Positions 11,419 through 29,119 of a DNA stretch of 64,000 nt are shown in pieces. The first letter of the stretch is position 1. The number at the start of each line of letters is the position of its first letter. The notes beneath the pieces were generated by a model. It was not told where the DNA came from. It searched no databases and saw nothing but the letters and a program-made list of their open reading frames with translations. This DNA comes from Planktothricoides raciborskii GIHE-MW2. Lineage in GTDB: Bacteria > Cyanobacteriota > Cyanobacteriia > Cyanobacteriales > Laspinemataceae. The DNA lies in contig NZ_CP159837.1 of the NCBI RefSeq assembly GCF_040564635.1, positions 6,497,001 to 6,561,000 on the forward strand, given 5' to 3'. The position numbers and the translations under genes were made by a program.

Positions 11419-13332
11419 TTAAAAATCTTTTGGGAAAAAAGCAGCGTTTTCTCTGGCGATGGTGTTGACTACTAAGGCGCGATCGAGAAAGTCGTTACTT
11501 CTTTCACAAGAACTTTCCGCAATTAACACGCAACCATGACAAGCTGCCCCTTGTAATAAGGCATCGTCTTCGCGATCGCCGGGGATATGTTGAGAGCAAA
11601 TCGGATCGTTAGAACATATTTCTCCGCTTTCTAAGGCTAGTTCGAGGTAATATTCTAAGTGATCGCCGATTTCAATTAATCCCCCTAAGGTGCCTTCAGA
11701 ACCACTCGAACCCGTATAAATTAATATACCATAACCGAGGTCAGGATTAGCATAAATTCTTTCTTTAATTGCCGTAGACGAATAGCCGCATTTTAAGGAA
11801 ATGGTAGTAATTAATAAATGGGATAAAGAATGCAGCATAATGTATGGCATTCCCGGAAAATGTTCCTCTTTTTTGGGAATATTGTTAATTTCTAGCCATG
11901 CTTTATAGCCTGTTTGTAAATCTTTGCAGCGTTCGATTACCGGCGATCGCTCTGCCCAAGTTTTGATTTTTTCTTGGTTGAAAGAAAAGAAAATTCCCTC
12001 TCCTTTATTGGCGATCGCGGGCACCCATGATATTCCACTGGTTTCCCAGTCTAAACTTGCCCGACGGACATTAATATCTAATTCCCCATTAATATCTGGC
12101 ATTACCGCTTCAAACCGCGTAAAACCTACTTGGGCAATTACTTCTCGGAGGCGGTGAACTAAGACAATTTTATCTAGGAAAGGTTGCCAGTTACTTTCGA
12201 TGGGTTTTGTGCGTAAATATGCCTCAAAATCTACCTCATCAATGGGTTTATTTTGTGCTGCTTGGGGTTCTGAAACACAAGCTAACAGCACCTCTAACTC
12301 CGCGTCTTTAATGGTTTTTTCAACTTCCGGTTCGTCGCTTTTTCGGCGTTCTAATTCTCCCCAAACTTTCGGAATTCCCAGGGCTTTTAGTTCGGCTAAA
12401 CCGTCCATTAAATTGACAATCATATTCAGCATTTCTACTGAGTCGATATTTTTTAAATATTGGTCATAAAATTTATCCACGACTTTTCTTAATTCGTGGT
12501 CGGAGTCCGGCAAAGAAATCACGCTGAGAGTTTGACTAAAATAAGCGTTACTAGCCGATCGCACTAATAAACGGCTTTGTTCCGGTTCATTAGTAGGAAT
12601 TAACTCCTCGGTTTCTGGATCTCGTTTATAACCTTGGCATTCTTCTTTGGTGTTTTTAGTCGGATTTAACCACGGGCGATCGCCCAAACATTTGCCTAAT
12701 ATTTTGGAATTGGGTAACTTAGCCAAAGAAAGGGGATGGCGTTTTTTACAAGCGTCACAGCGGACGAAAATTTCCTCAAAATCATTCCCCGAACCCGCTT
12801 CATCTAACCAAATTTGTCCTGGGCAGTTGGTTTGAAAATCTTGATGGGCAAAAGCCCGCCAATTAATATCACTTAAATGGCCATTTACGCAAGCTTGAAC
12901 AAAGCGAACGGGCACCGCATGGCATTTTTTCCCTTCCCATGTACAGCCTTTTTTAATCCCACTCCAAGGGAATAGGGGACGAGTGCGATATAGCTTACCT
13001 TGAATAGTAATATTGCGTTCGATTTGCACTAGAAACCAGCGGGGAAATACAAAAGCATCGATGCCAGAAATCGCCGCCCCCGTCGGGTCGGAATCATCCA
13101 CAGGTGGGGCATAAAGTTGCACATTTTCCCCTGGATTTATCTTTAATATTTTTTGCACTTTTTGCCGCAGACGTTCTTCTTGAATTGGTTGTTTATATCC
13201 TTTCCAATAGGATAAACCGCTAATCACCACCGACTGTTCTGGTAGGTCTACCATTGCCCCCGGCCCAAAGGTAGTAAGTAGTTGACTTTGCCGGAGTTCG
13301 CCATCAGGTTGAATGTTATTTGTATTTGCCAT
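11419..13332 (-). CDS. drmB: DISARM protein DrmB (DUF1998)
   Basis: DUF1998-type protein of the DISARM anti-phage system, where DrmA and DrmB form the core complex that senses and blocks incoming DNA. The signature start LLTTFGPGAMVDLP is at residues ~19-33. CVNGHLSDINW (about 148) and the zinc-ribbon-like CDAC (about 193) follow. The C-terminal DUF1998 part holds GSSGSEGTLGGL, CSNDPICSQH and ACHGCVLIAESSCE, with clustered cysteines typical of metal binding. It is the last gene of the minus-strand island, 212 bp after the endonuclease gene. Bases 13332-13351 repeat a 20-bp sequence found before the methyltransferase start. No Shine-Dalgarno is visible. Confidence 0.9.
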   Translation of the reverse strand: MANTNNIQPDGELRQSQLLTTFGPGAMVDLPEQSVVISGLSYWKGYKQPIQEERLRQKVQKILKINPGENVQLYAPPVDDSDPTGAAISGIDAFVFPRWFLVQIERNITIQGKLYRTRPLFPWSGIKKGCTWEGKKCHAVPVRFVQACVNGHLSDINWRAFAHQDFQTNCPGQIWLDEAGSGNDFEEIFVRCDACKKRHPLSLAKLPNSKILGKCLGDRPWLNPTKNTKEECQGYKRDPETEELIPTNEPEQSRLLVRSASNAYFSQTLSVISLPDSDHELRKVVDKFYDQYLKNIDSVEMLNMIVNLMDGLAELKALGIPKVWGELERRKSDEPEVEKTIKDAELEVLLACVSEPQAAQNKPIDEVDFEAYLRTKPIESNWQPFLDKIVLVHRLREVIAQVGFTRFEAVMPDINGELDINVRRASLDWETSGISWVPAIANKGEGIFFSFNQEKIKTWAERSPVIERCKDLQTGYKAWLEINNIPKKEEHFPGMPYIMLHSLSHLLITTISLKCGYSSTAIKERIYANPDLGYGILIYTGSSGSEGTLGGLIEIGDHLEYYLELALESGEICSNDPICSQHIPGDREDDALLQGAACHGCVLIAESSCERSNDFLDRALVVNTIARENAAFFPKDF

Positions 13333-13544
13333 AGGATTAGGTTTTAATGGTAGTTTGGGTAGGGTGTGTTAGGCGCGGGGATAATTAATATTATAAACCA
13401 TTAAATGAAATGTCCGCGCCGTAACGCACCATTAGGTAGAGGGTACAGAAACCGGGTTTCTTAGTTAACTTTTGGATATTTGCGTAAATTTTCGCAGAAA
13501 CCCGGTTTCTTGGTTGCTTAATTAGCGTTGAATATTAAATATTA
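13333..13544. repeat. Intergenic AGAAACC palindrome pair upstream of drmB
   Basis: Two 15-bp palindromes of the AGAAACCGGGTTTCT family, near 13449 and 13497, are separated by about 33 bp and can form hairpins in the drmB leader. Next to drmB lies the 20-bp sequence also found upstream of the methyltransferase gene. Confidence 0.6.
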
Positions 13545-14456
13545 TTAAAAATGACCCTGATTGAGAACATTCTCCATTGATGGGCTTGTATCATCAATGA
13601 GAGATTGGATCTTATCGATCATTCTTTGAAATACATCACTATAGTATCTAGAGGAATCCAAAAAATCTATATATTCCTGTCTATGGTTTCGTCTTGCTTC
13701 TGGGGTTCTATACTCTTGACGAATATTAGAGGACATTCGCTTCGTCTTGCGGACGATTAAAACATCATCAATTTGAGTTGAGATCAGCGAAACTGGGGTC
13801 ATATCCAGAAATTCACAGACAATAAAATATAAAGATCCAGGAACAGCAGTTTTTAAGTCTCGACTTGTCGCTACTGCCTCTTGAAACATCGTTTTGTCTA
13901 GATTAGTTTTACACTCTGCACAAACATATCCAAGATGTGACTCAATGAACTTACAATCTTGAAATTCTCGGTCGAATGATGATTTTAGATATAATTTTTT
14001 ACCCAAGATAAAGTCTTGGTCTTTACTTCTAATAATTGGTTCACCACCTTGACCTAAATTTCCCAGAGATGATAGAAAACTTAATCCAGCAAACGTATTT
14101 CTCAGTCCTAACTCAAAAGAATCATCGATTCCCCGCAAACTACGAAAAACTACTTGTGGCAAGAATTCTTCTAGGATAGTATTGTCTAGTTTTAACTGTC
14201 CTTTCTGTCTGTATAGAAAGTTTTCTGCACTATCAAAAATAAAATCAAGTTCGATAAAACGCTTGTATCGATTGGTTGCCTCGACGAGTCTTTCAACCGT
14301 ATCCGGTTGACCCCGTTCAATTGATTCCATATCCGATATCCATTGATGATACTTTCTGATTGCTTCTTCTAACCGTTCTCGATCAGATTCAGGTAAGCGA
14401 CGGTTGTTGAGACAAGCGATTAACTTTGTGTAATGAGGTCGAGAAATCTCAGGCAT
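13545..14456 (-). CDS. Type II restriction endonuclease, Bpu10I-like
   Basis: Probable restriction endonuclease of 303 residues. The core AECKTNLDKTMFQEA near residues 178-192 gives the ExK half of a PD-(D/E)xK nuclease site and, from memory, matches the Bpu10I family pattern. The N-terminus is a charged helical region, and a helical tail follows the core. It lies 40 bp after a DNA methyltransferase on the same strand, the usual arrangement of a restriction-modification pair. Both are inserted between drmA and drmB, where DISARM loci do not normally carry them. The family name is moderately certain; the recognition site is unknown. Confidence 0.65.
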   Translation of the reverse strand: MPEISRPHYTKLIACLNNRRLPESDRERLEEAIRKYHQWISDMESIERGQPDTVERLVEATNRYKRFIELDFIFDSAENFLYRQKGQLKLDNTILEEFLPQVVFRSLRGIDDSFELGLRNTFAGLSFLSSLGNLGQGGEPIIRSKDQDFILGKKLYLKSSFDREFQDCKFIESHLGYVCAECKTNLDKTMFQEAVATSRDLKTAVPGSLYFIVCEFLDMTPVSLISTQIDDVLIVRKTKRMSSNIRQEYRTPEARRNHRQEYIDFLDSSRYYSDVFQRMIDKIQSLIDDTSPSMENVLNQGHF

Positions 14457-14496
14457 AGAGTGAAGTTTTATTTTTATTTTATTGATAATTTTACAA

Positions 14497-15699
14497 TTAT
14501 TTTATCCGATCGCTAACTATTTTTCGATCTAAAATCGGGGTACTTTTAATATAGTCTACTTTATCAATAGCCTCTTCAAGCAAACCGATATTTTGGCGAT
14601 CGCATAAAGAGAGACCACTCTTTAATATATCAAAAGCTACCTCCCTGGCAATTTTTTCCACGGCTTCCTGTGATATTTTATTATCCAAGTTATAAAAACC
14701 AATAATATCTTCCCTGATTAATTGGCCGAACTTATTTTTGAATTCTCTTTCTTGCCTTAATTTTTCTTCAAATAGGTTAGCTTTTAACCCAATTTTTTCG
14801 ATAATATCAGCATTATAAAATGGTACGCCTATTACATTAGATTTATGCCCGATAATCAGGACGATTCGGGCTTTTTCTTTGCTGACTCTAGAAATCTCTC
14901 TGAGAGTATCAGCCATGTCTAAACAGTATTGAACTACTGTGTAAAATCGATTGCTTCTGTTCGCTCTATTGGAGCCAATTTCTGACCGGGCTATTTTTAA
15001 AATATCCCAGCCGAGTATTTCAGCGGATTTCCGATAGTTTTGATGATAATTAAATACATTAATATAGGGGGGAGATGTGACGACAAAATCTATCGAATTG
15101 CTTTCTAAGGGAAGCGATCGCGCATCGGCTAAACCCATATTAATCGGCTGGTTGGAGTAAGGAATATTTTCCATAAGATTTACCAAATCAGCAAATTTTG
15201 CCTGAACAGATTCATTGGTGACAGTATTATTGGCGATATCGAGTAAAATCACCAATGCGTCAAATATCTTGATTGATTCTCGATCTAGCTGATGCCTAAT
15301 ATTGTTGATTTTTTCGGCAAAATTATCCACTGGATCTTGGGCAAAAATTCTAAAAGGAAACTCTCGATCTATAACTTCTCTGAGAAGGTTAATCGATTGT
15401 TTTTTTCTGGAGTTATTAATAAATTCATATATTGTGCTAAGTATCCAAGCTGCCGGATTAATATCAAATCCATAGGCTTCAAGCTGGAGAATTCCCGCTT
15501 CTAGTAAAACAGTGCCGCTGCCTGCAAAAGGATCTAAAATTACCGAATCAGGCAGGCAGTATTCATTCAGGATAACCTCAATAAGCTGAGGCGAAAATTG
15601 ACCGCGCCAGGTAAACAAGTTAGACCTGGTTTTTTCCACGATGTCAAGTTTTTCTTTTGGGATTGGTTTGTCAAACTGCTTCAATGTTTTCTGGTACAT
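14497..15699 (-). CDS. DNA methyltransferase (amino-methyltransferase) of the island
   Basis: S-adenosylmethionine-dependent DNA methyltransferase of about 400 residues. Motif I is LDPFAGSGTVLLEA at residues ~55-68, preceded by a motif X-like FTWRGQFSPQLIEVI. Motif IV VVTSPPYINVF lies near residue 207. TSPPY indicates N4-cytosine or N6-adenine methylation rather than C5. Order I then IV is gamma-like. The start at 15699 was chosen because the longer frame begins with MCLCGKK, the translation of the dispersed repeat at 15727-15760. It probably protects host DNA from the adjacent endonuclease, and might also mark DNA for DISARM. Confidence 0.8.
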   Translation of the reverse strand: MYQKTLKQFDKPIPKEKLDIVEKTRSNLFTWRGQFSPQLIEVILNEYCLPDSVILDPFAGSGTVLLEAGILQLEAYGFDINPAAWILSTIYEFINNSRKKQSINLLREVIDREFPFRIFAQDPVDNFAEKINNIRHQLDRESIKIFDALVILLDIANNTVTNESVQAKFADLVNLMENIPYSNQPINMGLADARSLPLESNSIDFVVTSPPYINVFNYHQNYRKSAEILGWDILKIARSEIGSNRANRSNRFYTVVQYCLDMADTLREISRVSKEKARIVLIIGHKSNVIGVPFYNADIIEKIGLKANLFEEKLRQEREFKNKFGQLIREDIIGFYNLDNKISQEAVEKIAREVAFDILKSGLSLCDRQNIGLLEEAIDKVDYIKSTPILDRKIVSDRIK

Positions 15700-15774
15700 T
15701 TGCTTAGGATTAGGTTTTAATGGTGGGTATTTTTTACCACAGAGACACAAAGGACACGAAGAGATTATATTGAA

Positions 15775-18700
15775 TTAATCCCGGCTAATCCAGAGGTTAA
15801 CGGTGGGTTCTACGTCCCGTAAACTGCGCGGGGTTTTGAATTTTTTCGCGGCTTCGGAAAGGTTGGCGGTTTTGGGGTCGTTGGGGTCGCACAATAGCGG
15901 GCCAATGTTTTCCGCTTCGGTCTGATTATATTGCAGTATTTTATCGTTGCTTTCCCATAATTCCGTCCAAGTATCTAATAAGTTCATTACTCGTTTTTCT
16001 ATTTCTTGGCGAATTTTGGCGCTTTCTGCTGGGGACATGGGGGTATGACTCGCTGCCCGATCGCATATTGGGGCGATCGCCTGTTCGATAGTTGACCGGA
16101 GTTGGGCTATTTTACCGGCGCCCATAGGCGGAGTCATTTCGGCTAAATTTAAGCGGGTTAAGGCAACGGTGACAGCAGCTAAACCGCGATCTAAGGCCCG
16201 AACGGAGAAGGGAGTGACACTGGTGACTTCTACGGAACGATAGAAATTATTGTGCCAATGCATAAATCTTTCATAATGTGAGCGATCGCGCGGTCGATGG
16301 ATATTTAATAAAGTAACTACCAACCCCGGACGACTGGGGTCACGACCGACCCGGCTGCTACTTTGAATATATTCGGCGGCAGTTTTTGGTTGACCGAGAA
16401 TCACCATTAATCCTAAACGGACAATATCCAAACCCACAGAAATCATATTTGTGGCTAAGGCAATATCTACCCGTTCTTTTTTCGGGTCTTTTTCGGCAAA
16501 AGAAATAGATAAGCGGCGTTTGGTATTGGCTATTTTATCGGTGGTGACTCGCGAGGTGAGTTCTTGCTGATCGTCTTGGATTTTTCGGTTAGCAAATAAG
16601 CCGTCTTTTTCTCCATAACGCTGGCGGCTTTGATAGTTTTGCAGTCGAGAAACTACCTCATCTTCCACAATGCGGCGACTGCCCCCTAATTCTCGCAGAG
16701 AGTTAAAATATCCCAGCAAGGTCATATATGGATCGACCGGGTTATGGGAATTTTTTTGGCCTCCAGCTAATTCCCATTGTTTTTGGGCTGCACTTAATAA
16801 GGCCAAATAGGTTCTTAATAAGACTACTTTTAAACTACGGCCTTGGGCGGCTACTCCTATATATAGTCGTCCAGGGCTTTTTTTAGTCGGTATGGTTTGG
16901 GCAAAAAATGAATCATCCAAGTTTGGCCCCGGAGGAGGAAAAACTTGAATTTCCGTCCGATTAAATAGGGCTTGAATTTGTCGATCTGCCCTGCGGACTG
17001 TGGCAGTAGAGGCGACGATTTTCGGGCGAATTATTCTATCTCCCCCCTTTTCAAGGGGGGCAAGGGGGGCATCTCCTGCTGGGGTGGAAATTCTGCGGCT
17101 GCAAAGTTCATCGATCGCGGTTTCATAAAGTCCCACCATTGTCCCTAATGGCCCAGAAATTAGGTGCAATTCATCTTGAATAATTAAATCTGGGGGTGGC
17201 AAAGGTTGCTTGAGTTGAGTTCCTTTGATACCTCGTCCTTTAATATTATCTGCGGTACTATAAAAACCTTCTCCAGTTTGATAATGGCTAACTTTACCAA
17301 ATAAGGCCGCAGTTTGGCCAAACCACGGCAAACCCGCAAATTTATCTACAGTGGAAATGAGAAAACAAGGTAAACGCCGATAGATGGATTCATCGATCGC
17401 AATTATGGGTAAATGATTGTTTTCCTCAGAAAATTCACAGTCAAAGTTTTGACATTTAACTAATAGTTGCGTTGGGTGGCTTTCGTCCGGGTGTAACCAA
17501 AAAGAATCAGGAGTGAATTTTTCCCCACACCAGGGACATTTTTCTAAGGGAATGGGCGATCGCGATCGCTTACTATCCTTTTTAAAATTAAGGGTAATTT
17601 GGCGGGCTGAATCGGGATTTTTATCGCCTTTTTTGCCCATACGGTTGGGGGTGGCGCTTTGTCCCACCCACAGGCCAATTTCAAACGGCCATTGTCCTAA
17701 TTTTTTTAAGTTATCCGGGTGGTTTTTTCTGATTAATTCTAAGGCACAAATTAACCGAGTTGCCCTTTCTAATTGGTCTAAGGTTAGCAGGCGCAAAGTA
17801 TAGCGCATGATGACGCTAACTCCCGCGCCATATATGTCTTGATTGGTTAATCGGCGATAGACTAAAGTAAATGCCGCTAGTCCTAAATAGGCTTCGGTTT
17901 TACCGCCACCTGTGGGAAAAAATAGCAGGTCAACTATATCGCGATCGCTTTTATCTCCTATTTTATCTCCCCCTTCTTCCCCTGCCAAAGAAAGAGTTTG
18001 ATTGTCATTCCCGCGCAGGCGGGAATCCATCTTATCGCGATCGCTTTTATCTCCTATTTTATCTCCCCCTTCTTCTCCTGCCAAAGAAAGAGTTTGATTG
18101 TCATTCCCGCGCCGGCGGGAATCCATCTTATCGCGATCGCTTTTATCTCCTATTTTATCTCCCCCTTCTTCTCCTGCCAAAGAAAGAGTTTGATTGTCAT
18201 TCCCGCGCAGGCGGGAATCCATCTTATTACTATTGACAATACCGCCAATATTTAGTAAAATAAAAGCTAACTGAAATGGTCGCCAATTTGGGGCAGAAAA
18301 AGCATCCGCCGGTTGCTTACTTTCTTGGGCTAACTGTTGGCGACGGGCTTGGGCTACCGCTTGATTGGCAAGTTTAAAAGCGTAGAATACTTGGCTATCT
18401 GTTAGTAAGTCTATGCCTTGGTTGATGCGATCGCAGGCAATTTGCGCCCGACTTAGCAGTTTTTTGCTAGTTTCTATCTGCTTCTCGGAATCCACAGGAA
18501 TCTTCTCTTGTTCGGCAATCCATTGGCGATAAGCAATAGTTAAAGGGCGGAGGCTTTCTTGCAAAGATTCCGATTGAGAAAATTGGCCAATTTTCTCCAT
18601 ATTTAACTCAACTTGGTCTAACTTTGCCGGGGCAACTTGGGCAACTTCTGCCGCAGGAACCCAAGTAGTTTTAATCAGCGGACAATAGGCGGAATTTTCC

Positions 18701-19821
18701 GGGTCAATTTGGGCAAAAGCGGAGGCATTGTGACCCACCGCAAACTCATAATTATGGCGATATTGGACAGCGGCAACTCTTTCATCCCAATCATCATCAC
18801 CGCCTTCTCGCAAGTCGGGACGAGGGAGAAATCCTTCCCTACATTCTAACTGTAATTGGGCTTGGAAAATATAGCTAGTATCTCGTTGTTTGCCCTCAGC
18901 AATTTTTCGTTTATTAACTAAAAATACGGATAAAATATTAGTATCGGCGAAAAGGCGACGATGATTTGCTTGAATATTTCCCTGGATATGCAAAGGGCGG
19001 TTATTTATGGCTAATTCTAACCCATTGCTATCGGGAATTGGCATATAAATTGTTTTTTCTGTGGTTCGCAGTTTTAGGGTTAATTCATATTTATGGGGAG
19101 TTCTTTGCCAATATTCTGGGTCCGAGAAACCGGGTTTCTCAGAAAGAGAATTGTCATTCCCGCGAAGGCGGGAATCCATATTTTCTGGTGTTAACTCGAT
19201 CGCTTCATATATATTGTCATTCCCGCGAAGGCGGGAATCCATATTTTCTGGTTCTAATTCGATCGCCTCACATATATTGTCATTCCCGCGAAGGCGGGAA
19301 TCCATATTTTCTGGTGTTAACTCGATCGCCTCATATATATTGTCATTCCCGCGAAGGCGGGAATCCATATTTTCTGGTGTTAATTCGATCGCCTCACATA
19401 TATTGTCATTCCCGCGAAGGCGGGAATCCATATTTTCTGGTTTTAATTCGATCGCTTCATAGTCTCCCCAAGTCACCGTCACCTCTAACTCTTCGATGGT
19501 ATTTTTTAATAAGAAAGTCAGCCCTACCGAAGAGGGAAACGGGGCAGTTCGGGCAGCTTTTTTTTCGGGACTGTAGCTATCTTCCCCGCGATCGCTTTTA
19601 TTCAGGCTACTATTTAAATCATCTTGACCGCGATCGTCATCAATGCGGTCTTTCAGGGGGGCACCTTTGGGACAGAGAAACCCGGTTAAATACCATTTAG
19701 TTGGGGGAGAATTAATAATTTCTCTTGCGTGTTCGATATCGTCTGGGGTTGGCCCGATTAAATCGAATTCTAAGGCATTAACCAGGATATCTCTAACTTG
19801 GGCAGAGGTAATTGAGGACAT
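15775..19821 (-). CDS. drmA: DISARM helicase DrmA with in-frame repeat insertions
   Basis: Large SF2-type helicase of DISARM (1348 residues). Motif I is LLFFPTGGGKTEAYLG near residue 635, motif II IIQDELHLISG near 880, and motif VI QSSSRVGRDPSRPGL near 1160. It acts with DrmB on incoming phage DNA. Two repeat arrays lie inside the frame. Five 21-residue units (core MDSRLRGNDN) occupy residues ~120-225. Three 32-residue units with the same core stand immediately before motif I (residues ~533-628). A further 15-bp palindrome at 19125-19139 encodes EKPGF. All insertions keep the frame, so the protein is probably still made. Without the arrays it would be about 1150 residues. Confidence 0.9.
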   Translation of the reverse strand: MSSITSAQVRDILVNALEFDLIGPTPDDIEHAREIINSPPTKWYLTGFLCPKGAPLKDRIDDDRGQDDLNSSLNKSDRGEDSYSPEKKAARTAPFPSSVGLTFLLKNTIEELEVTVTWGDYEAIELKPENMDSRLRGNDNICEAIELTPENMDSRLRGNDNIYEAIELTPENMDSRLRGNDNICEAIELEPENMDSRLRGNDNIYEAIELTPENMDSRLRGNDNSLSEKPGFSDPEYWQRTPHKYELTLKLRTTEKTIYMPIPDSNGLELAINNRPLHIQGNIQANHRRLFADTNILSVFLVNKRKIAEGKQRDTSYIFQAQLQLECREGFLPRPDLREGGDDDWDERVAAVQYRHNYEFAVGHNASAFAQIDPENSAYCPLIKTTWVPAAEVAQVAPAKLDQVELNMEKIGQFSQSESLQESLRPLTIAYRQWIAEQEKIPVDSEKQIETSKKLLSRAQIACDRINQGIDLLTDSQVFYAFKLANQAVAQARRQQLAQESKQPADAFSAPNWRPFQLAFILLNIGGIVNSNKMDSRLRGNDNQTLSLAGEEGGDKIGDKSDRDKMDSRRRGNDNQTLSLAGEEGGDKIGDKSDRDKMDSRLRGNDNQTLSLAGEEGGDKIGDKSDRDIVDLLFFPTGGGKTEAYLGLAAFTLVYRRLTNQDIYGAGVSVIMRYTLRLLTLDQLERATRLICALELIRKNHPDNLKKLGQWPFEIGLWVGQSATPNRMGKKGDKNPDSARQITLNFKKDSKRSRSPIPLEKCPWCGEKFTPDSFWLHPDESHPTQLLVKCQNFDCEFSEENNHLPIIAIDESIYRRLPCFLISTVDKFAGLPWFGQTAALFGKVSHYQTGEGFYSTADNIKGRGIKGTQLKQPLPPPDLIIQDELHLISGPLGTMVGLYETAIDELCSRRISTPAGDAPLAPLEKGGDRIIRPKIVASTATVRRADRQIQALFNRTEIQVFPPPGPNLDDSFFAQTIPTKKSPGRLYIGVAAQGRSLKVVLLRTYLALLSAAQKQWELAGGQKNSHNPVDPYMTLLGYFNSLRELGGSRRIVEDEVVSRLQNYQSRQRYGEKDGLFANRKIQDDQQELTSRVTTDKIANTKRRLSISFAEKDPKKERVDIALATNMISVGLDIVRLGLMVILGQPKTAAEYIQSSSRVGRDPSRPGLVVTLLNIHRPRDRSHYERFMHWHNNFYRSVEVTSVTPFSVRALDRGLAAVTVALTRLNLAEMTPPMGAGKIAQLRSTIEQAIAPICDRAASHTPMSPAESAKIRQEIEKRVMNLLDTWTELWESNDKILQYNQTEAENIGPLLCDPNDPKTANLSEAAKKFKTPRSLRDVEPTVNLWISRD
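17937..18224. repeat. 96-bp tandem repeat x3 inside drmA
   Basis: Three near-identical 96-bp units start at 17937, 18033 and 18129. Each contains ATTCCCGCG(C)xGGCGGGAAT, a palindrome like the Neisseria dRS3 or REP type, at 18007-18026, 18103-18122 and 18199-18218, plus a HIP1-containing segment. The period is 32 codons, so the drmA frame is preserved. Copies differ by one or two bases (for example GCAGGC versus GCCGGC). Confidence 0.95.
19151..19461. repeat. 63-bp tandem repeat x5 inside drmA
   Basis: Five copies of ATTCCCGCGAAGGCGGGAAT start at 19156, 19219, 19282, 19345 and 19408, exactly 63 bp apart. Each is followed by a spacer that includes a CGATCG core. The period is 21 codons, so copies add an in-frame peptide with core MDSRLRGNDN. 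A 15-bp AGAAACCGGGTTTCT palindrome (19125-19139) abuts the array. Confidence 0.95.
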
Positions 19822-19868: not shown

Positions 19869-19970
19869 GCTTGGTATTATATCAAAGTTTGCAGGGTAAT
19901 TAGAGAAACCGGGTTTTTTAATTATTTTTTAATGTTATCCGTAAATTTACGCAGAAACCCGGTTTCTTGG

Positions 19971-21210
19971 TTTAACCGTAACGCACCATATTATTTTTTT
20001 ACCACAAAGACACAAAGAAACACAAAGATATTTTGTAGGGGCGAAGCATTCCGGCAGATAAATTATTGCTTAAAACGTTAACCTGAATACCGGAATGCTT
20101 CGCCCTCGCTGTGGGATTAGGGCAAAGCATTCCGGTAAATAAATTGTCGTTTATATATTAAATCAATCGCCGGAATGCTTTGCCCCTACATATCCCGAAT
20201 AGAAACCGGGTTTCTTGGTTTAACCGTAACGCACCATATTATTTTTTTACCACAAAGACACAAAGAAACACAAAGATATTTTGTAGGGGCGAAGCATTCC
20301 GGCAGATAAATTATTGCTTAAAACGTTAACCTGAATACCGGAATGCTTCGCCCTCGCTGTGGGATTAGGGCAAAGCATTCCGGTATTTAAATTGTCGTTT
20401 ATATATTAAATCAATCGCCGGAATGCTTTGCCCCTACATATCCCGAATAGAAACCGGGTTTCTTGATTTAACCGTAACGCACCATATTATTTTTTTACCA
20501 CAAAGACACAAAGAAACACAAAGATATTTTGTAGGGGCAAAGCATTCCGGCGGATAAATTATTGCTTAAAACGTTAACCTGAATACCGGAATGCTTCGCC
20601 CTCGCTGTGGGATTAGGGCAAAGCATTCCGGTAAATAAATTGTCGTTTATATATTAAATTACCCGCCGGAATGCTTTGCCCCTACATATCCCGAATAGAA
20701 ACCGGGTTTCTTGGTTTAACCGTAACGCACCATATTATTTTTTTACCACAAAGACACAAAGAAACACAAAGATATTTTGTAGGGGCGAAGCATTCCGGCA
20801 GATAAATTATTGCTTAAAACGTTAACCTGAATACCGGAATGCTTCGCCCTCGCTGTGGGATTAGGGCAAAGCATTCCGGTAAATAAATTGTCGTTTATAT
20901 ATTAAATTACCCGCCGGAATGCTTTGCCCCTACATATCCCGAATAGAAACCGGGTTTCTTGGTTTAACCGTAACGCACCATATTATTTTTTTACCACAAA
21001 GACACAAAGAAACACAAAGATATTTTGTAGGGGCGAAGCATTCCGGCAGATAAATTATTGCTTAAAACGTTAACCTGAATACCGGAATGCTTCGCCCTCG
21101 CTGTGGGATTAGGGCAAAGCATTCCGGTATTTAAATTGTCGTTTATATATTAAATTACCCGCCGGAATGCTTTGCCCCTACATATCCCGAATAGAAACCG
21201 GGTTTCTTGA
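19971..21210. repeat. Five tandem 248-bp units between drmMI and drmA
   Basis: Units begin at 19971, 20219, 20467, 20715 and 20963, with a constant 248-bp period. Each unit holds a TTACCACAAAGACACAAAG segment and two long imperfect hairpins whose arms are GTAGGGGCGAAGCATTCCGG/CCGGAATGCTTCGCCC and GGGCAAAGCATTCCGG/CCGGAATGCTTTGCCCC. It also carries one AGAAACCGGGTTTCTTG palindrome. Copies differ at only a few positions, for example AATCAATC versus AATTACCC. The array ends two bases before the drmMI stop codon. No gene is present; plus-strand open frames here are repeat artefacts. Confidence 0.97.
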
Positions 21211-21212
21211 TT

Positions 21213-24200
21213 TTATAAAAGATTAAGTTGATCGCTATTTACCTCTTTTTTCGGTTTACTTGGCGGCTTACTTTGCTTCTTTTTCCCTTGGCTATGTTTG
21301 CCCAGGCGAATTTCCGCGTCATAGCGTTCCTGGTTCAGTTGCAAAAGTCGGGCCAAGATATCGTTATGGGTGGGTTCGTCCCAACGACGACGCCAGGGCA
21401 ATTTGCGTTTGCCGGTTTGGACCGCGTTGGCAAATTCTAGGGCTGCGTCGGCGGTGGGGAAAAACAGGTCATGGCTATCTATGCGGTCTTGTATGTCCGG
21501 GGGATAGCTGTGGTCTGGGTCTGTGTCCAGGTAGTCCAGGGCAAAGCCGCATTCCGGGGTCAGGTCCGACCAACCGTAGGCAGAGAGGACCGCTAGATCC
21601 ATTTGTTCATGGAGTTCTCGCAGTTGCAGGATTTCTGGGTCGGTTTCGTTGGGGTCGTGAAAGCGGTTATAAGTGTCCGTAAGTCCCTGGTTATTTTCGA
21701 TCATTAATTGGGCGCGAGTTTCGTAGTAGGTTTGGCCAATTTGTTCTAGGTTCGCCTCGGTTTCCCAGTTTTCAGGAAAGGGGAAGGTTTCAAAACAATC
21801 TGTGGGAGTGTAGCGGAGTCGATCTTCCAGAGATGATCCGAAAAATCGCGCCCAAGTTTCATGGATGCGGGATTGTAAAATAGTGAAAGCAGAAAATGTT
21901 TCAAGTGAAAATACAGCAAGTGCGTGGGAAAATACACTGTTTGCTGATAAAAAGGCAAATGATAAATTTGCCGAGTGCAAAGAACAAACTAAGACGCGGG
22001 AAAGAGGCGCGATCGCCTTTTTTAATCCTGGTCGTTTTTCTGCATATTGCCACCACCGTTCACACAATGCTTTTCTTTTCTGTACATCACGTTCTGGCTT
22101 AACCTTATCGTGAACAATTTGCATTAAATCAGGGTAATTTTCCCAACACTCTGATTCTTCTCTATCAAAAAAATCAATTGCATAACGATAATATTGATGA
22201 GTCGGACTAGAATTCACCTCAGACCCGCCAATATAGGGAAAAATCACCTCTTGATTCTGGGGATTTGCGGCAATTAAACGGTGCATTTCCGCGATCGGGG
22301 TCGCGTCCGCATTGCGATCGTCAAAAGTGAAACCCATCCCTAAAACATAACTGCCAATAAAACTTTTTTCTGCATTAGCTAACAAAGGTTTCGGGTCATC
22401 ATTTCCCCCGTCATTAAATAAGAATGCGGTAATTTTCTTCACCGGACGACCATCAAGAATTGGTTGGGGTAATTGTAGGGGTGGTGCCCCCGTGCCCACC
22501 CCGATATTTTTCCCTCCCTTAAAAATATGCACTAAACTAACCACAACTGCCGCCATTCCCGGCCAGCGATAACGCTGAGTTGCATGATAAATCATCCCGC
22601 CATGATTACAAATAAACCGCAACCCACTGCTGCGGGTATCCCCTTGAGAAATAGTATTTGTCGCAATTAATCCCAAGGTGCCATAATCTCTAATTAAATT
22701 AAAAGAACGGCGGAAAAAATGCGCCACTAAATCCGCGTTTCCGTGGGATTCGGGATGAACTTCTTTTAACCAATCCACATATCCCTCTGGGTTGCCATTA
22801 ATAATCGTATTTTTTCCCGCAAACGGCGGATTGCCCACAATACAATCAAACCCAGGATTGGGGCGATTAAATACTTCGGGAAATTCCACCTCCCAATTAA
22901 ACGGGGTGGGAATAGAAACCTCGTTGGAGGTAGAAACCGGGTTTTTTGAAAAAACCCGGTTTCTGGCGTCTCCATCACCGCTTAAACTGTTCTCAACTAA
23001 TAGCCGATATTTATTCTCAATTTCTACTTTTTCCGACTTATTCTTACTTGCCCCATCAAAAAAAGCCGCCACTTTTGCCCAAGCCGCAAACCGGGCATTT
23101 TCTAACGCCGATTCTGACTGATTCCACCGTTCGGCATTCGCCTCCGCGTCCGCATCAGTTTGGGTATCCGTTGCCTGAATTTGTAACCGAAAATCCTCGG
23201 ATTCTCTCACCTGATTATTTAATAGTTTACTTAACGGTAAATCCGCCGTAGGATCGACAAATGCGCCGATTTCTTTAGTAGTCAATCCCACCAAAGAATC
23301 CCCACATTTCAGGGCATGATCCACAAAAGTAAACGGCGCATCTTTAGCTAAAGTAACTAACCATAAAGATAACTTAGCCAAATTCACCGCAAACGGGTTT
23401 TTATCCACCCCATATAAACACCGTTGGGCAATTTTCCGCCTCGCTTGAATAATGGGTATTTGCGTCGTGGAGAGAAACCGGGTTTCTTCAAGAAACCCGG
23501 TTTCTGTGGCGTCTGCAACTACCAACAACTCCGCCAATTGACGGCAAACTTCTACTAAAAATGCCCCAGACCCCATCGCTGGATCGCATATTTTTAAACT
23601 TAATATCTGTTCCGCAGTTGGATTAGACCCAAATTGCTGCAATATCGGCTTTAAAGTATTAGCAACTATTGGCCCTGTTAAGGCGCGAGGGGTATAATGA
23701 GAACCAGATTTCCGCCGTTCTTCTCCCGGTTGTAAATATAATGAACCTTTGGGCAATAAATTCTGAGTTCGGTCAGAAATTCGCCGCCCCAATGCTGCTA
23801 AAATATCCTCAATGGTTTTCGCCTGTTTTAACTCCGTTGCCCCTTTCGTGGGTAGGCTACATTCAGCCCAATCTTTTAATAATTTTGCGCGATCGCCCGG
23901 TTTTGCCGCCAACAATTCTGCCACATTAATCACAATATCTTGGGGGGATAGGGCAATAGACAAATCAGGGGCGGTTTGCACTTCAAACCCCATAATTCCC
24001 TCATACACCGAACCAATATCTTCTACATCTAAAGACCGATAAGATAAGCGATCGCCATTTAACATCACCAGCTTATCTAATATGCGATAGATCGTCCCAT
24101 CAGGAATTTGGGGAACGTTCAAAGGTTCTTCGATATCCTTAAATTTACTCCCTTCCGGTCTGCCTTCCAAAAACCCATAAACATCAGGATCAAATAACTG

Positions 24201-25289
24201 CCCATGTCGGGCTGGTAAATAGTCTTCATAGGGCCCGCCCCCATCATAAACTAAGCGAAATAAACTCAATAATCCCGCATAAGCCCCATATCGCAAATCC
24301 ATCGTATCCGGGTATTGCCCCGCATCATTTCGCAACTTTTCATAAAGCCCCGACACCGCATAATAACGCTGATAAACGGGTTCGTCGGGCATTAATCCTT
24401 CATCTTCCGCATAGAGTAAAAAAACCAACCGCATTAATATAGTAATTAAGCCGCCATAAATGTGGGTTTTTCCCTCTGGATTTTGCCGCAATTCCTTTAA
24501 TAATTGCCCCTGAACTGCCGCGTCTGCGGTTTGCATTCCCCGCAACAATTCCCACAAAGCATCTAACACTTGGGCTGATAATTGGGTGGAAACTTCCGCT
24601 TGATATTGCCGACTGTTGGCCAAAATTTGAGGCAGTCGATCTTTTGCGGGCACCGTATATAAACGGGATTTTCCTAGCAACATTTCTAAAGCCCCTAAGA
24701 TTAACCGCCCCGCGACTTCGGTCATAGCTTTTACGGGAAAAGTGAGATAACCGGAAGATTCACCTCTGGGGGCATAAATTAATCTAATTTCTGTCCCATT
24801 ACATAAGAGTCCGATGGGATTTTGGGTTTCTCGGAGAAGTCGTTCAAATTTTGCTTGGGGGGATGCTTTCCAACCTTGTCCCGGTTTCTCCGTTTCTGCC
24901 CGATCTAAATCCGTTCCCGGTGAGACTATTTTAATTAAAAATAGCCACTCGTTGCCCTCCCGATTTTTTAACCCATAATCCGCTTGTAAAATTTCTCCAT
25001 AGTCCCGTAAAAATACGCTTAATTCTGCGGGCAATTCGCGAACAATGACTTTTTCGGGCCACTCTAATACTTGTTTGCCCATTTCTAATAAATCTGATAT
25101 CCACGGTTCACCGTTCGGCAACGGTTCCGGGGCCAAATATTCTTTAAATTTCTGCTGCAATTCGATTAGTTTGCCCCGATCTATATTAGCTTGGGCTTTA
25201 ATTAATGCTGGTGGGGCCACTACTAAGCCAATGGGTTGCAGCAGTCCTAGCCATTCTTTATGTTCAAATAAGGTGCGATCGATGTTCAT
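21213..25289 (-). CDS. drmMI: DISARM class 1 adenine methyltransferase DrmMI
   Basis: DNA adenine-N6 methyltransferase of class 1 DISARM (1358 residues), which marks host DNA as self. Motif I is LKICDPAMGSGAFLVE near residue 565, and the catalytic motif IV is CIVGNPPFAGKN near residue 820. The long N-terminus resembles type IIG/BREX-like enzymes, and the C-terminal target-recognition region ends with a lysine-rich tail. Two 33-bp paired palindromes lie in frame (23473-23505 and 22932-22964), each encoding 11 residues (ETGFLEETRFL in the first), between motifs I and IV. The start ATG abuts a heptamer repeat leader. It follows drmD after a 572-bp repeat-filled gap. Confidence 0.88.
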   Translation of the reverse strand: MNIDRTLFEHKEWLGLLQPIGLVVAPPALIKAQANIDRGKLIELQQKFKEYLAPEPLPNGEPWISDLLEMGKQVLEWPEKVIVRELPAELSVFLRDYGEILQADYGLKNREGNEWLFLIKIVSPGTDLDRAETEKPGQGWKASPQAKFERLLRETQNPIGLLCNGTEIRLIYAPRGESSGYLTFPVKAMTEVAGRLILGALEMLLGKSRLYTVPAKDRLPQILANSRQYQAEVSTQLSAQVLDALWELLRGMQTADAAVQGQLLKELRQNPEGKTHIYGGLITILMRLVFLLYAEDEGLMPDEPVYQRYYAVSGLYEKLRNDAGQYPDTMDLRYGAYAGLLSLFRLVYDGGGPYEDYLPARHGQLFDPDVYGFLEGRPEGSKFKDIEEPLNVPQIPDGTIYRILDKLVMLNGDRLSYRSLDVEDIGSVYEGIMGFEVQTAPDLSIALSPQDIVINVAELLAAKPGDRAKLLKDWAECSLPTKGATELKQAKTIEDILAALGRRISDRTQNLLPKGSLYLQPGEERRKSGSHYTPRALTGPIVANTLKPILQQFGSNPTAEQILSLKICDPAMGSGAFLVEVCRQLAELLVVADATETGFLEETRFLSTTQIPIIQARRKIAQRCLYGVDKNPFAVNLAKLSLWLVTLAKDAPFTFVDHALKCGDSLVGLTTKEIGAFVDPTADLPLSKLLNNQVRESEDFRLQIQATDTQTDADAEANAERWNQSESALENARFAAWAKVAAFFDGASKNKSEKVEIENKYRLLVENSLSGDGDARNRVFSKNPVSTSNEVSIPTPFNWEVEFPEVFNRPNPGFDCIVGNPPFAGKNTIINGNPEGYVDWLKEVHPESHGNADLVAHFFRRSFNLIRDYGTLGLIATNTISQGDTRSSGLRFICNHGGMIYHATQRYRWPGMAAVVVSLVHIFKGGKNIGVGTGAPPLQLPQPILDGRPVKKITAFLFNDGGNDDPKPLLANAEKSFIGSYVLGMGFTFDDRNADATPIAEMHRLIAANPQNQEVIFPYIGGSEVNSSPTHQYYRYAIDFFDREESECWENYPDLMQIVHDKVKPERDVQKRKALCERWWQYAEKRPGLKKAIAPLSRVLVCSLHSANLSFAFLSANSVFSHALAVFSLETFSAFTILQSRIHETWARFFGSSLEDRLRYTPTDCFETFPFPENWETEANLEQIGQTYYETRAQLMIENNQGLTDTYNRFHDPNETDPEILQLRELHEQMDLAVLSAYGWSDLTPECGFALDYLDTDPDHSYPPDIQDRIDSHDLFFPTADAALEFANAVQTGKRKLPWRRRWDEPTHNDILARLLQLNQERYDAEIRLGKHSQGKKKQSKPPSKPKKEVNSDQLNLL
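22932..22964. repeat. 33-bp paired palindrome in drmMI
   Basis: Two head-to-head copies of the AGAAACC..GGTTTCT palindrome form a 33-bp unit within the coding sequence. At 11 codons it keeps frame and falls between methyltransferase motifs I and IV, near the NPPF motif. Confidence 0.85.
23473..23505. repeat. 33-bp paired palindrome in drmMI
   Basis: A second 33-bp unit of paired AGAAACCGGGTTTCT palindromes separated by a CA/TG centre. It adds ETGFLEETRFL to the protein, just after motif I. A degenerate relative encoding ETGFDEKTRVI is found in drmD near 26960-26994. Confidence 0.85.
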
Positions 25290-25382
25290 GGTTGTTGTTG
25301 GTTGTTCGTTGGTGGTTGGTGGTTGGTGGTTGGTGGTTGGTGGTTGGTGGTTGGTGGTTGGTGGTTGGTGGTTGGTGGTTGG
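25290..25382 (-). promoter_or_regulatory. GGTGGTT heptamer (STRR) leader of drmMI
   Basis: About ten tandem GGTGGTT heptamers (AACCACC on the transcript strand) end in a short GTTGTTGGTTGTTCG tract that touches the drmMI start codon. No Shine-Dalgarno is visible. Such heptamers are known as STRR sequences in filamentous cyanobacteria and are prone to copy-number change. Confidence 0.7.
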
Positions 25383-25861
25383 TATAAATTATTATGCCAA
25401 AATTTGCACCGTAACGCACCATGTTATTTTTTTTACCACAAAGACACAAAGAAACACAAAGATATTTTGTAGGGGCGAAGCATTCCGGCAGATAAATTAT
25501 TGCTTAAACCGTTAACCTGAATACCGGAATGGTTCGCCCTGATCCCACAGCGAGGGCGAAGCATTCCGGTAAATAAATTATCGTTTATATATTAAATTAC
25601 CCGCCGGAATGCTTTGCCCCTACAAAATGAAAATTCAATAAAAATTTACAATGAGGGCGAAGCATTCCGGTAAATAAATTATCGTTTATATATTAAATTA
25701 CCCGCCGGAATGCTTTGCCCCTACAAAATGAAAATTCAATAAAAATTTACAATGAGGGCGAAGCATTCCGGTAAATAAATTATCGTTTATATATTAAATT
25801 ACCCGCCGGAATGCTTTGCCCCTACATATCCCGAATAGAAACCCGGTTTCTTGATTTTAAA
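25383..25861. repeat. 101-bp tandem units and a 248-type unit between drmD and drmMI
   Basis: A partial relative of the 248-bp unit (25406-25551) is followed by two full 101-bp units (25552 and 25653) and a third truncated at 25826. Each 101-bp unit contains the GGGCGAAGCATTCCGG...CCGGAATGCTTTGCCCC hairpin and an AT-rich spacer. An AGAAACCCGGTTTCTTG palindrome ends the tract. No gene is present. These hairpins are transcribed if drmD and drmMI share a transcript. Confidence 0.93.
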
Positions 25862-28800
25862 TTAACTGGAAGTCGGCCATAAATAGACGACCCCAACGGG
25901 TTCTATGCGGATCGCTTTTACTTGGTAGCTTTGTTCGATCCGTTCCGGTTCCGTATTAATTTCTTCGGTTAGTTGGTCTAACCGAATTTCCCAGTAACGG
26001 CGATCGGCTTCTATTTGTCGCTTTTCATCGGTATTAAATAGAGAAAGTTGATAGGCTTCGATTTTTTGTTGATCGAGGATGCGATCGCGTTGTTGGGTTA
26101 AAAGTTGCTGCATTTCTTTGGCTTCTTGTTCTCCCCGTTTGGTGAGTTCTCGAATGGCCCGATCGCTGATAATTTCTGCCCGTTTTGCCAAATGTCCTTT
26201 TAATTCGGCAATATCTTGAGAAACATAAGCCTTAAATCGGTCTAATAGCTGGTCGGGGACATTGCGTAAGAGGCGATCGCCCAAACAAGTTTCTAACTCG
26301 TCCATCACATTGGCTTTTTCGGTTTCCGACAAAGGCCGTAATTTGCCCCGCCCCCGACTTTCTGGGTTATTCCATTGGGCAGCAACGGCCAAAATTTCGT
26401 CATGGAGTCGGGCTGCGCGATCGCCATATAAAGATAACCGCCCCAAAATAACCACTTTAGGAATAGCATCATTAGTGAAGCAAACGCAAGCGCGAGTTAA
26501 CTGGTCTTGGGCAAAACCTTGAGATAAAAATCGCCCTAATAACCGCTGAACTAAACGATGTTCTAAATGTAGATGGACAACTTCCCCGTCTAAAGTTCCA
26601 GGGTCACGAAATACCACGGGACGAATCGGAGTTTCTCGGCGCCAGTCCCAGAGAGTTTTGCCCTTGGTTCGCGGCGATCGCAAACTATCAAGAGTATTGG
26701 CCCAAGTTGCATCCCCAGTTTGTTGGTCTAAGTTCGGCAAAATATAGCGATCGACATAGCGATCGGCAGAATTCGCGGCGGAACTTTCAAGCTGTAAACC
26801 TTCAGCCCCCATTAACTGCAAAGACACAGAAAGGGCATGGCGAAAATGAATGTCATCAAGTCCTAACCATTGCCGGGACTTTTGCAAAATTTCCTCTAAT
26901 TCTTCCTGCTGCTGATAGAGTTTTTGCTGTTGTTCCCGAATCGGTTCCAGTTCTCCTTGAATGACGCGAGTTTTTTCATCAAATCCGGTTTCGCTGGATT
27001 GGGCGATCGCCTCCGTAAGTTTCCCCTCTTCTTTTGCGGAAATGCCCGCATCTAAAATTTGGGTTAAATTTTTCTCCACTACGGGGGATAAACTGCCCAA
27101 CTCTTGCAAAATAGTCTGGGTTTTTTTCACCAACACATCCAAAACCCGATCCTCGGAACGTTGCTGCAAAATAAAATAGTGACAGCGGACAATTGTCTCT
27201 CGTTGCAACTTGCGATCGATGCGACCATTGCGCTGTTCCATGCGGCTAGGATTCCAGGGTAAATCAAAGTGAAATAAATCGGCGCAATAGTTTTGTAAAT
27301 TCACCCCTTCTCTCGCAGCATCCGTGGCAATTAAAATCCGTAACGGATGCTGGGCTGGATTCTCATTAAATGCTTTTTTAATCTCCTCGCGGCGATCGTC
27401 CCCGATACCCCCATGAAACGTGGCAATTCGGTCTTCTGCTTGGTCAGAATTCGCGATCGCCTGTTTTAGCTGCCGTTCCAAATAGCGTTTAGTATCCGCA
27501 TATTCGGTAAAAATTAATACACGGCGATCGTGCCATTGCGCCCCAGGTTGCCCTAAATTGGGACAAAGGTTTTCCCGAATCCACTCAATTAATTTTACCA
27601 TCCGACTATCGGGTTGATAGCGGGCAGTGTCCGCAATATCCGCCATAGTTGCTAATAACTGTAACTCCTGGGGAGAAACTTGCCCCAAATCTTGAGCAAT
27701 TGCCTGAGAAGCAGCGGTCATTTGCGCTTCTTCTTCTGCCTCCACTTCCGCTTCTGCTAAATCAGCGCGATCGTCATCACTGCTAATACTTTCCTGCAAT
27801 AAAGCATAACGCCCAGAATCAGCGGAAAAAGCGGAAAAACTCGATAAATTAGTCGATTTTGACTTCTCTATTGCCCGTTCAATGGACTGCCGATGCACCT
27901 GCAAAGTCCGGGCAAAAGCCTCAATAGAAGACAACAGCCGTTTTTGCAAAGAAGTTAACACCAAAATAGCCGTAGTTTGGGTTGACTTCTTAGCAGTTTT
28001 TAACCGTTCTTCTCGACTACTGCGATAAGCTTGCAATAATTCCGCTAATTTTAACTCTGGGGCATCCTTGGGCAACCCATCAATGATAATGGGAATCACC
28101 AGACGTTCGGGAAAATCCGCTGGATCGATCGCCCGTAAATCTTGTTTTAACCGCCGTACCATCACCGCTTCTAATAGTCTCTTATCGACGGAAATACCGC
28201 GACAAAACCGCTGCGGATCGAGAATTTCTAATAAGGTAGAGAAACTATTAGAATGGCCATTATGCGGGGTCGCACTTAAGAATAATTTATGCTCAAATTT
28301 CGGGGCAATTTCCCGGACAACTTTGGTTAAATGGGAATCCACGGCATAACGAGAACTGCTAGATGGGGCCGCATGATGGGCTTCATCTAATATTAGCAAA
28401 GAACCGGCAGAAAGATTATCTTTATCTAACCAATCCCGTAAAAGAGAAGCATAAATTTCATCCCGTAATAAAGCATGAGAAATAATAAATCGGTTGTGAG
28501 TTTTCCAAGGATTAATTCCATAACCCCGTTCTCTTCTTTTACCAGCCATAAATTCGCGATCGAAGATTTGAAACAGCAACCCAAAGCGATGTTCCATTTC
28601 TTCTTGCCATTGTTGCACCACCGACGGAGGACAAGAAATCACTACTCGTTTCACTTTTTGCCGCAAAATCATTTCCCGCAAAATTAAGCCCGCTTCAATG
28701 GTTTTTCCCAATCCCACATCATCGGCAATAAACAAAGAAACCCGTGGCATTGATAATGCTTTCCGCAGGGGTTCTAACTGATAGGTTTTAATTTGAATGC

Positions 28801-29119
28801 CCGCCCGATAGGGAGATTGAAATAATTCTTTTTTCGTGGAAGTGACACAATTCCAACGCAAAGTATGTAAATAAGCGGAAAAATCATTTCCGCGATCGAA
28901 CCCTCTTTTTGCCACTAAATCCCAAGAGGACTCAGGCAAAATTTTGGCATCAAGTTCTCGATGCCAAAATACGGTCAATTCTTCCCCGATCGCATCATCA
29001 TCCACACAAGCTAAACTGACACTTTCATCCTTTCCTGCTTCCGTCGGTGGGATAATTTCCTGAACTAAATAATGGCGCGATCGGACTTTAACAATTTGCC
29101 CTAAAGATAACTGATTCAT
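25862..29119 (-). CDS. drmD: DISARM SNF2-like helicase DrmD
   Basis: SNF2/SWI2-type ATPase of class 1 DISARM (1085 residues). Motif I is IADDVGLGKTIEAGL near residue 130, and motif II LLILDEAHHAAP near 245, followed by LFLSATPHNGH. The C-terminal helicase half carries the DAAREGVNLQNY and RMEQRNGRIDRKLQ blocks near residues 590-635. A charged coiled-coil region makes up the last 300 residues. It is the first gene of the island and is divergent from the CCB1-like gene at 29337. A degenerate 11-residue palindrome-derived peptide (ETGFDEKTRVI) occurs near residue 715. The start codon touches a heptamer repeat. Confidence 0.9.
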   Translation of the reverse strand: MNQLSLGQIVKVRSRHYLVQEIIPPTEAGKDESVSLACVDDDAIGEELTVFWHRELDAKILPESSWDLVAKRGFDRGNDFSAYLHTLRWNCVTSTKKELFQSPYRAGIQIKTYQLEPLRKALSMPRVSLFIADDVGLGKTIEAGLILREMILRQKVKRVVISCPPSVVQQWQEEMEHRFGLLFQIFDREFMAGKRRERGYGINPWKTHNRFIISHALLRDEIYASLLRDWLDKDNLSAGSLLILDEAHHAAPSSSSRYAVDSHLTKVVREIAPKFEHKLFLSATPHNGHSNSFSTLLEILDPQRFCRGISVDKRLLEAVMVRRLKQDLRAIDPADFPERLVIPIIIDGLPKDAPELKLAELLQAYRSSREERLKTAKKSTQTTAILVLTSLQKRLLSSIEAFARTLQVHRQSIERAIEKSKSTNLSSFSAFSADSGRYALLQESISSDDDRADLAEAEVEAEEEAQMTAASQAIAQDLGQVSPQELQLLATMADIADTARYQPDSRMVKLIEWIRENLCPNLGQPGAQWHDRRVLIFTEYADTKRYLERQLKQAIANSDQAEDRIATFHGGIGDDRREEIKKAFNENPAQHPLRILIATDAAREGVNLQNYCADLFHFDLPWNPSRMEQRNGRIDRKLQRETIVRCHYFILQQRSEDRVLDVLVKKTQTILQELGSLSPVVEKNLTQILDAGISAKEEGKLTEAIAQSSETGFDEKTRVIQGELEPIREQQQKLYQQQEELEEILQKSRQWLGLDDIHFRHALSVSLQLMGAEGLQLESSAANSADRYVDRYILPNLDQQTGDATWANTLDSLRSPRTKGKTLWDWRRETPIRPVVFRDPGTLDGEVVHLHLEHRLVQRLLGRFLSQGFAQDQLTRACVCFTNDAIPKVVILGRLSLYGDRAARLHDEILAVAAQWNNPESRGRGKLRPLSETEKANVMDELETCLGDRLLRNVPDQLLDRFKAYVSQDIAELKGHLAKRAEIISDRAIRELTKRGEQEAKEMQQLLTQQRDRILDQQKIEAYQLSLFNTDEKRQIEADRRYWEIRLDQLTEEINTEPERIEQSYQVKAIRIEPVGVVYLWPTSS

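Follow-up and report, generated by a model that had tools for sequence, protein, structure and literature searches.

A class 1 DISARM locus (defence island system associated with restriction-modification) in the cyanobacterium Planktothricoides raciborskii GIHE-MW2 raises the question of whether a restriction-modification (R-M) gene pair lodged between its core genes drmA and drmB has become part of DISARM or only shares its address. The locus lies in a 64,000-nucleotide stretch of contig NZ_CP159837.1 (positions 6,497,001 to 6,561,000), hereafter the window, in which six open reading frames (ORFs), all open and all on the minus strand between 11419 and 29119, run in the order drmD, drmMI, drmA, methyltransferase, endonuclease and drmB, each confirmed by PADLOC or Pfam profiles. 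A preliminary description made from the sequence had given the same six genes in the same order, with a Bpu10I-like endonuclease, and had read them as class 1 DISARM that lacks drmC and carries an R-M pair between drmA and drmB; the profile models uphold that anatomy. The description further proposed that the R-M pair replaces the nuclease DrmC, or that the two systems share self-marking, and neither proposal is supported by the findings below. In our judgement the pair is probably a stand-alone R-M cassette that was inserted into the drmA-drmB spacer of a drmC-less class 1 DISARM operon and acts separately from it.

On this reading a Type II R-M cassette, methyltransferase first and endonuclease second, would have entered a short drmA-drmB spacer in the same direction as the operon, duplicating the drmB leader and leaving drmA and drmB intact. 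DISARM would then act as it is known to, with DrmMI marking self DNA and DrmAB together with DrmD acting on unmarked DNA, while the R-M endonuclease would cut unmethylated CCTNAGG and its methyltransferase would protect that site. Three genomes of the genus, two of them drafts, were compared: that of the window (G000; one contig, 7,215,835 bases, 99% complete), that of Planktothricoides sp. SR001 (G395, locus L038), which is the same species, and the Oscillatoriales metagenome-assembled genome S07.Bin090 (G396, locus L039), which is the same genus.

The R-M pair belongs to a stand-alone family

When one genome of each of 84,980 species was scanned, relatives of the endonuclease turned up at 39 loci. 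No drm match was found by tblastn in the 5.5-20.9 kb of DNA per locus at 37 of these, and the two that adjoin drm genes are SR001 and S07.Bin090. These 37 loci span cyanobacteria to Anaerolineales and Deltaproteobacteria, and wherever both genes are visible in a relative they share a strand, with the methyltransferase first. The family was also matched in 30 of 386 genomes drawn from the phylum, and the window's endonuclease is similar in size to its stand-alone relatives. The methyltransferase-endonuclease pair is a widespread stand-alone Type II R-M system. At two loci (L045, 8762-10912, and L008) the two activities lie in a single open frame of about 715 amino acids, a possible fused R-M protein. 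We take the TSPPY motif of the methyltransferase to be of the N4-cytosine type, and the modification is possibly N4-cytosine.

The nested arrangement, by contrast with the family, was found only in the three genomes of the window's genus. The DrmA model matched 95 genomes, from which only places scoring at least 135 bits were taken (33) together with 5 more, giving 38 drmA loci. Other cyanobacterial DISARM loci had been named in the preliminary description as places where the same insertion might recur; none of the 36 drmA loci outside the genus matches either gene, and the idea that cyanobacterial DISARM regularly includes the R-M pair was rejected for this reason. The distance between co-directional drmA and drmB is -147 to 603 bp in 28 of the 31 loci where it could be counted, the exceptions being both congeners and a single locus that holds a DrmMI-like fragment; the count omits seven loci that have no drmB match (L124, L136, L142, L144, L145), an inverted drmB (L131) or no separate drmA (L146). 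In the window the two genes are 2.4 kb apart, and the R-M pair occupies the space. The DrmMI-like fragment (320 amino acids) lies within the 2.2-kb drmA-drmB gap of L133 (G131), a second kind of separation of these genes.

No DrmC was found, and it is often missing elsewhere

The preliminary description saw no drmC in the window and held it unlikely to be adjacent to the locus; the absence was confirmed and extended to whole genomes. PLDc_2 has seven matches in the window's genome, none of them within the window. We also built a DrmC profile from 16 proteins encoded beside drmB at cyanobacterial loci elsewhere (a check of two of these showed both to be PADLOC DrmC matches). In the three genomes of the genus this profile found only a 21.7-bit match of 30 residues inside frames of 556-577 amino acids, and the DrmC genes of five relatives score 295-347 bits with it. 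drmC was not found anywhere in the window's genome or in those of its two congeners.

Could the endonuclease have taken over the nuclease role of DrmC, with DrmAB recruiting it or feeding DNA to it? Such a composite unit, in which DrmAB would unwind or stall on unmarked DNA while DrmC-type cutting came from the embedded CCTNAGG endonuclease, and which the cassette's entry between drmA and drmB would have fixed, would fit the lack of a detected DrmC in all three genomes, as well as the presence in all three of a nuclease gene, under constraint, between the genes of the DrmAB complex. However, DrmC is also missing at loci that have no such R-M pair. Among 28 informative co-directional drmA-drmB loci of other genera, none of which matches either R-M gene, 16 have a full drmC, three a partial one (L115, L140, L143) and nine none; this count leaves out the two congeners and L147, whose contig ends 46 bp past drmB and whose genome (G393) has no DrmC elsewhere. 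Loss of drmC is thus not special to R-M carriers, and passages of Bravo et al. (PMC9142583) describe DrmC as dispensable and often missing in DISARM. In addition, the endonuclease is of a size similar to that of its stand-alone relatives and retains their catalytic and specificity residues, so it should need its own site, and the 37 related loci without a drm match likewise lend the takeover no support. We consider both the takeover and the composite unit very improbable. The locus is nevertheless useful in this respect, as a natural drmC-less DISARM with a removable neighbouring nuclease offers a way to ask whether DISARM needs one.

CCTNAGG is the predicted recognition site

The endonuclease can be aligned to both subunits of BbvCI, and the alignment places its catalytic residues at D148, E181 and K183. 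Passages of PMC6326814 propose that in BbvCI the outer base of the CCT half-site is determined by Asp204 and Arg227 of R1, and that of the GCT half-site by Lys214 and Asn236 of R2; they also report that Bsu36I (CCTNAGG), BlpI (GCTNAGC) and Bpu10I (CCTNAGC) each have Met as the central residue. The window's enzyme has D218 and R240, matching R1, and Met as its central-base residue; Asp, Arg and Met also occupy these positions in 43 other aligned sequences, save for a gap in the shortened copy L021. It thus resembles the Bsu36I/BlpI/Bpu10I/BbvCI family in its RE_Bpu10I match, its catalytic D, E and K and its Met for the unspecified central base, where the likeness to Bsu36I and BlpI is to their published description and not to their sequences. 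Unlike the two-subunit BbvCI and Bpu10I, the window has one endonuclease gene, located inside DISARM, and a single gene makes a symmetric site probable.

Site counts point the same way. In 864 kb of the window's genome, both strands counted, CCTNAGG occurs 6 times against 270 expected from base composition and 196 from a Markov model, and GCTNAGC occurs 0 times against 270 and 144; none of the other gapped palindromes, 64 in all, is avoided as strongly as these two. The Bpu10I site CCTNAGC is at expectation (272 against 270 from base composition) and was rejected as a candidate. The whole 7.2-Mb genome contains 35 occurrences of CCTNAGG. Across other genomes, CCTNAGG is rare in all 15 that carry a 72-100% identical enzyme, at 0.009-0.261 of a reversed-pattern control (median 0.029), and for 20 genomes that lack the enzyme the median ratio is 0.458 (p 1.7e-4, uncorrected for kinship). 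The 20 are the first listed without a match rather than a random draw; this 38-genome test omits genomes with only weak Bpu10I-like matches, keeps three with a 44%-identical enzyme apart, and counts G255, whose enzyme match is shorter (239 of 303 residues), as a carrier. Two of the 15 carriers (G305 and G101) show no scarcity of GCTNAGC, which disfavours this site and makes it a weaker candidate than CCTNAGG.

Several observations pull against the prediction. All 14 genomes of the taxonomic family are depleted of CCTNAGG, five carriers at 0.009-0.040 and nine others at 0.020-0.203 (p 0.0145, with G387 and G390, whose enzyme matches are weak or broken, counted as non-carriers), and GCTNAGC gives the same p (0.0145) within the family. 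With eight more family genomes included, the non-carriers number 28 (median 0.224, p 4.8e-4), and in 15 of them the depletion equals or exceeds that of the least depleted carrier. GCTNAGC depletion, too, goes with carrying the enzyme (p 0.0022), and in the window's genome GCTNAGC is even rarer than CCTNAGG. For the three carriers of the 44%-identical enzyme, in which the specificity residues are unchanged, the CCTNAGG ratios are 0.43, 0.28 and 0.09. Finally, many 6-base palindromes are avoided in the window's genome too, and such strong avoidance suggests many restriction systems, past or present; ACTAGT, GTCGAC, GTGCAC and CGTACG do not occur at all in the 864-kb sample. Because the depletion is family-wide, we lowered our confidence in CCTNAGG from fairly high to moderate, and we keep it as the probable site predicted from residues and counts. 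It is a specific prediction and a cheap one to check.

Direct repeats mark the junctions of the cassette

A 20-bp exact direct repeat stands at the drmA/methyltransferase and endonuclease/drmB junctions of the window, its right copy reaching the start of drmB. A 19-bp piece of it has just two copies in the 7.2-Mb genome, even with up to 2 mismatches allowed. The SR001 repeat is 45 bp long with one mismatch and is followed by the same drmB leader, with 11 additional bases in its right copy, and a 21-bp piece of it is confined to the two junctions in that genome. Among 153 loci the repeat sequence was found in seven, all of them pieces of the window's genome or of SR001. These repeats are likely the scar of an insertion with target duplication. 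Since no empty drmA-drmB site was found in a close relative, the duplication is read from the repeats themselves.

Direct repeats also flank three further loci of the R-M family: 92 bp at L045, 41 bp at L046 and 65 bp at L064, the last being the 3' end of the open frame that lies upstream. Repeats scoring at least 30 flank 4 of 29 R-M loci, and repeats scoring at least 20 flank 5; the 29 are those of the 39 loci that remain after removal of nine without a full pair and of L055, which has too little flank, and among the five repeat-flanked loci SR001 and S07.Bin090 represent the same insertion. Of 5381 control pairs drawn from within loci, 6 score at least 30 and 26 at least 20. All six fall in L045, which is therefore the weakest of the three additional repeat-flanked loci. 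Control pairs between loci (best three per locus) score at most 14, except for one of 39, between the two congeners. Insertion of R-M systems with long, variable target duplication is stated in a passage of PMC3031569. The window's cassette resembles such insertions in being flanked by direct repeats of the apparent target with its neighbour genes intact, and differs from them in that the target is another defence operon. For insertions of this kind PMC3031569 cites Nobusato (2000) and Furuta (2010).

The insertion point is common to all three genomes. Synonymous divergence (dS) from S07.Bin090 is 0.104 for the methyltransferase and 0.110 for the endonuclease, between the values for drmA (0.081) and drmB (0.155). 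Together, the shared point and these intermediate values indicate that the insertion probably predates the split of the two species, and a single insertion in the ancestor of the three sampled genomes is the probable history as judged from divergence. Because its dS is like that of the neighbouring genes, we rejected the idea that each species had acquired the cassette by its own recent transfer. The ratios of nonsynonymous to synonymous divergence (dN/dS) from S07.Bin090, 0.21 for the methyltransferase and 0.14 for the endonuclease, show both genes to be under constraint.

Set against an insertion with target duplication are four points. No close relative supplies an empty drmA-drmB site, and there is no close uninterrupted DISARM among the 38 loci; flanking repeats occur in only the five of 29 loci; L045 carries such repeats elsewhere at similar spacing; and the repeat copies are more alike within each species than across species (the two window junctions, Table 1, compared with L151), which suggests later conversion or exchange after the split. 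We still regard the repeats as the likely trace of the insertion. If so, one defence system is set inside the core of another with an apparently readable scar, which would make a route to nested defence loci visible.

No earlier report of R-M genes nested in DISARM was found in titles, abstract openings and passages of the literature. The locus is real and uncommon. Its parts are known, and so, probably, is the route by which they were joined; the apparent novelty is a class 1 DISARM without drmC whose drmA and drmB are separated by an R-M cassette.

The two systems probably work apart

If the extra methyltransferase also protected the host from DrmAB, the two systems would share self-marking. 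In favour of this idea, the methyltransferase gene adjoins drmA, and a passage of PMC9142583 reports that methylated DNA lowers the ATPase activity of DrmAB, as tested with 5-methylcytosine. The 35 predicted sites in 7.2 Mb are, however, too rare: methylation of CCTNAGG, if that is the site, could hardly be DISARM's self-mark. Moreover, DrmMI is intact, and its recognition region varies independently of the R-M pair. Residues of about 1039-1149 of DrmMI, within the target-recognition domain, are strongly divergent from those of S07.Bin090, and the R-M proteins are 94-97% identical between the same two genomes; the two marks thus appear to evolve separately. The apparent replacement of this region suggests that the methylation specificity of DISARM changed between the sister species. 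We judge shared self-marking to be extremely unlikely.

We infer that the R-M pair and DISARM are independent, and functional coupling between them is unlikely. Why, then, has the nesting persisted? Possibly the cassette provides an additional layer of defence, or it may help to keep the island stable. A passage of PMC3031569 describes R-M systems as mobile, selfish elements that can stabilise the DNA to which they are linked, and the nesting is kept in all three genomes, in S07.Bin090 beside a different downstream gene (964 amino acids, ClpB-like). Retention within one genus may, on the other hand, be chance, and the idea that the cassette is kept because it stabilises the DISARM island as an addiction module, or because it is co-expressed as a further line of defence, is for us a tentative one, on the unlikely side.

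Layout and flanks of the locus

The features of the locus are collected in Table 1. The methyltransferase ORF reaches a TTG at 15750, and its likely start is the ATG at 15699; with that start, the spacers of 75 and 40 bp given in the preliminary description are correct, as is its statement that unrelated convergent and divergent genes close the flanks. The locus is like class 1 DISARM of Serratia sp. SCBI, the source of the DrmAB structures 7S9V and 7S9W, in having drmD, drmMI, drmA and drmB co-directional, and differs from it in lacking drmC, in carrying the R-M pair between drmA and drmB and in the repeat arrays of its DrmA. In class 1 DISARM, DrmC is typical but reportedly dispensable and often missing, and adjacency of drmA and drmB is usual but not defining; the window departs from both.

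Table 1. Positions of the DISARM genes, the R-M cassette, the junction repeats and the flanking genes in the window.
Feature	Position	Strand	Description and evidence
M20-type peptidase gene	10227-11411	+	Convergent flank
drmB	11419..13332	-	DUF1998/MZB protein, DrmA partner; PDLC02583 E 6.8e-78; MZB E 5.6e-9
Direct repeat, right copy	13332..13351	-	Ends on first base of drmB (ATG at 13332)
Restriction endonuclease, Bpu10I/BbvCI family	13545..14456	-	PF09549 (RE_Bpu10I) E 3e-105; BbvCI subunit 2 6eg7 E 3.9e-16
Methyltransferase	14497..15699	-	PF01555 (N6_N4_Mtase) E 4.5e-15; DPFAGSGT and TSPPY motifs
Direct repeat, left copy	15705..15724	-	20 bp, drmA/methyltransferase junction; inferred target duplication
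drmA	15775..19821	-	DISARM helicase; PDLC02575 E 8.1e-295; 567 bits to Serratia DrmA 7s9v
drmMI	21213..25289	-	MmeI/Eco57I-like methyltransferase, class 1 DISARM; PDLC02643 E 0; MmeI_TRD residues 1000-1173
drmD	25862..29119	-	SNF2-type helicase, class 1 DISARM; PDLC02621 E 0; SNF2-rel_dom, Helicase_C
CCB1-family gene	29337-29873	+	Divergent flank

A promoter scan gave 37 sites, against 38.0 in shuffled sequence. The terminator scan gave 33, against 23.9 (standard deviation 4.6) in shuffles, six of them plus-strand copies within the drmA repeat arrays, and it found no minus-strand terminator at either R-M junction. The R-M pair is probably co-transcribed with the DISARM operon.

Variable regions of the DISARM core genes

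DrmA aligns to the Serratia protein (7s9v_A) with an E value of 6.8e-169. It contains two in-frame repeat arrays, of five 63-bp units (19150-19461) and three 96-bp units (17937-18227), whose units include MDSRLRGNDN. The arrays are placed at residues 264-281 and 584-598 of Serratia DrmA, the latter immediately preceding the ATP-binding motif FPTGGGKT, and their copy number varies among the three genomes of the genus. In DrmB, a block at residues of about 288-323 is strongly divergent from both SR001 and S07.Bin090, which match each other there, and drmB has a dN/dS of 0.56 between the window and SR001.

The interval between drmMI and drmA varies as well. In the window it holds five copies of a 248-bp repeat (19953-21213), and the DUF3037 gene found in the congeners was not seen there; in S07.Bin090 a reversed gene with a DUF3037 domain lies between drmMI and drmA, and SR001 has this gene, too, upstream of drmA.

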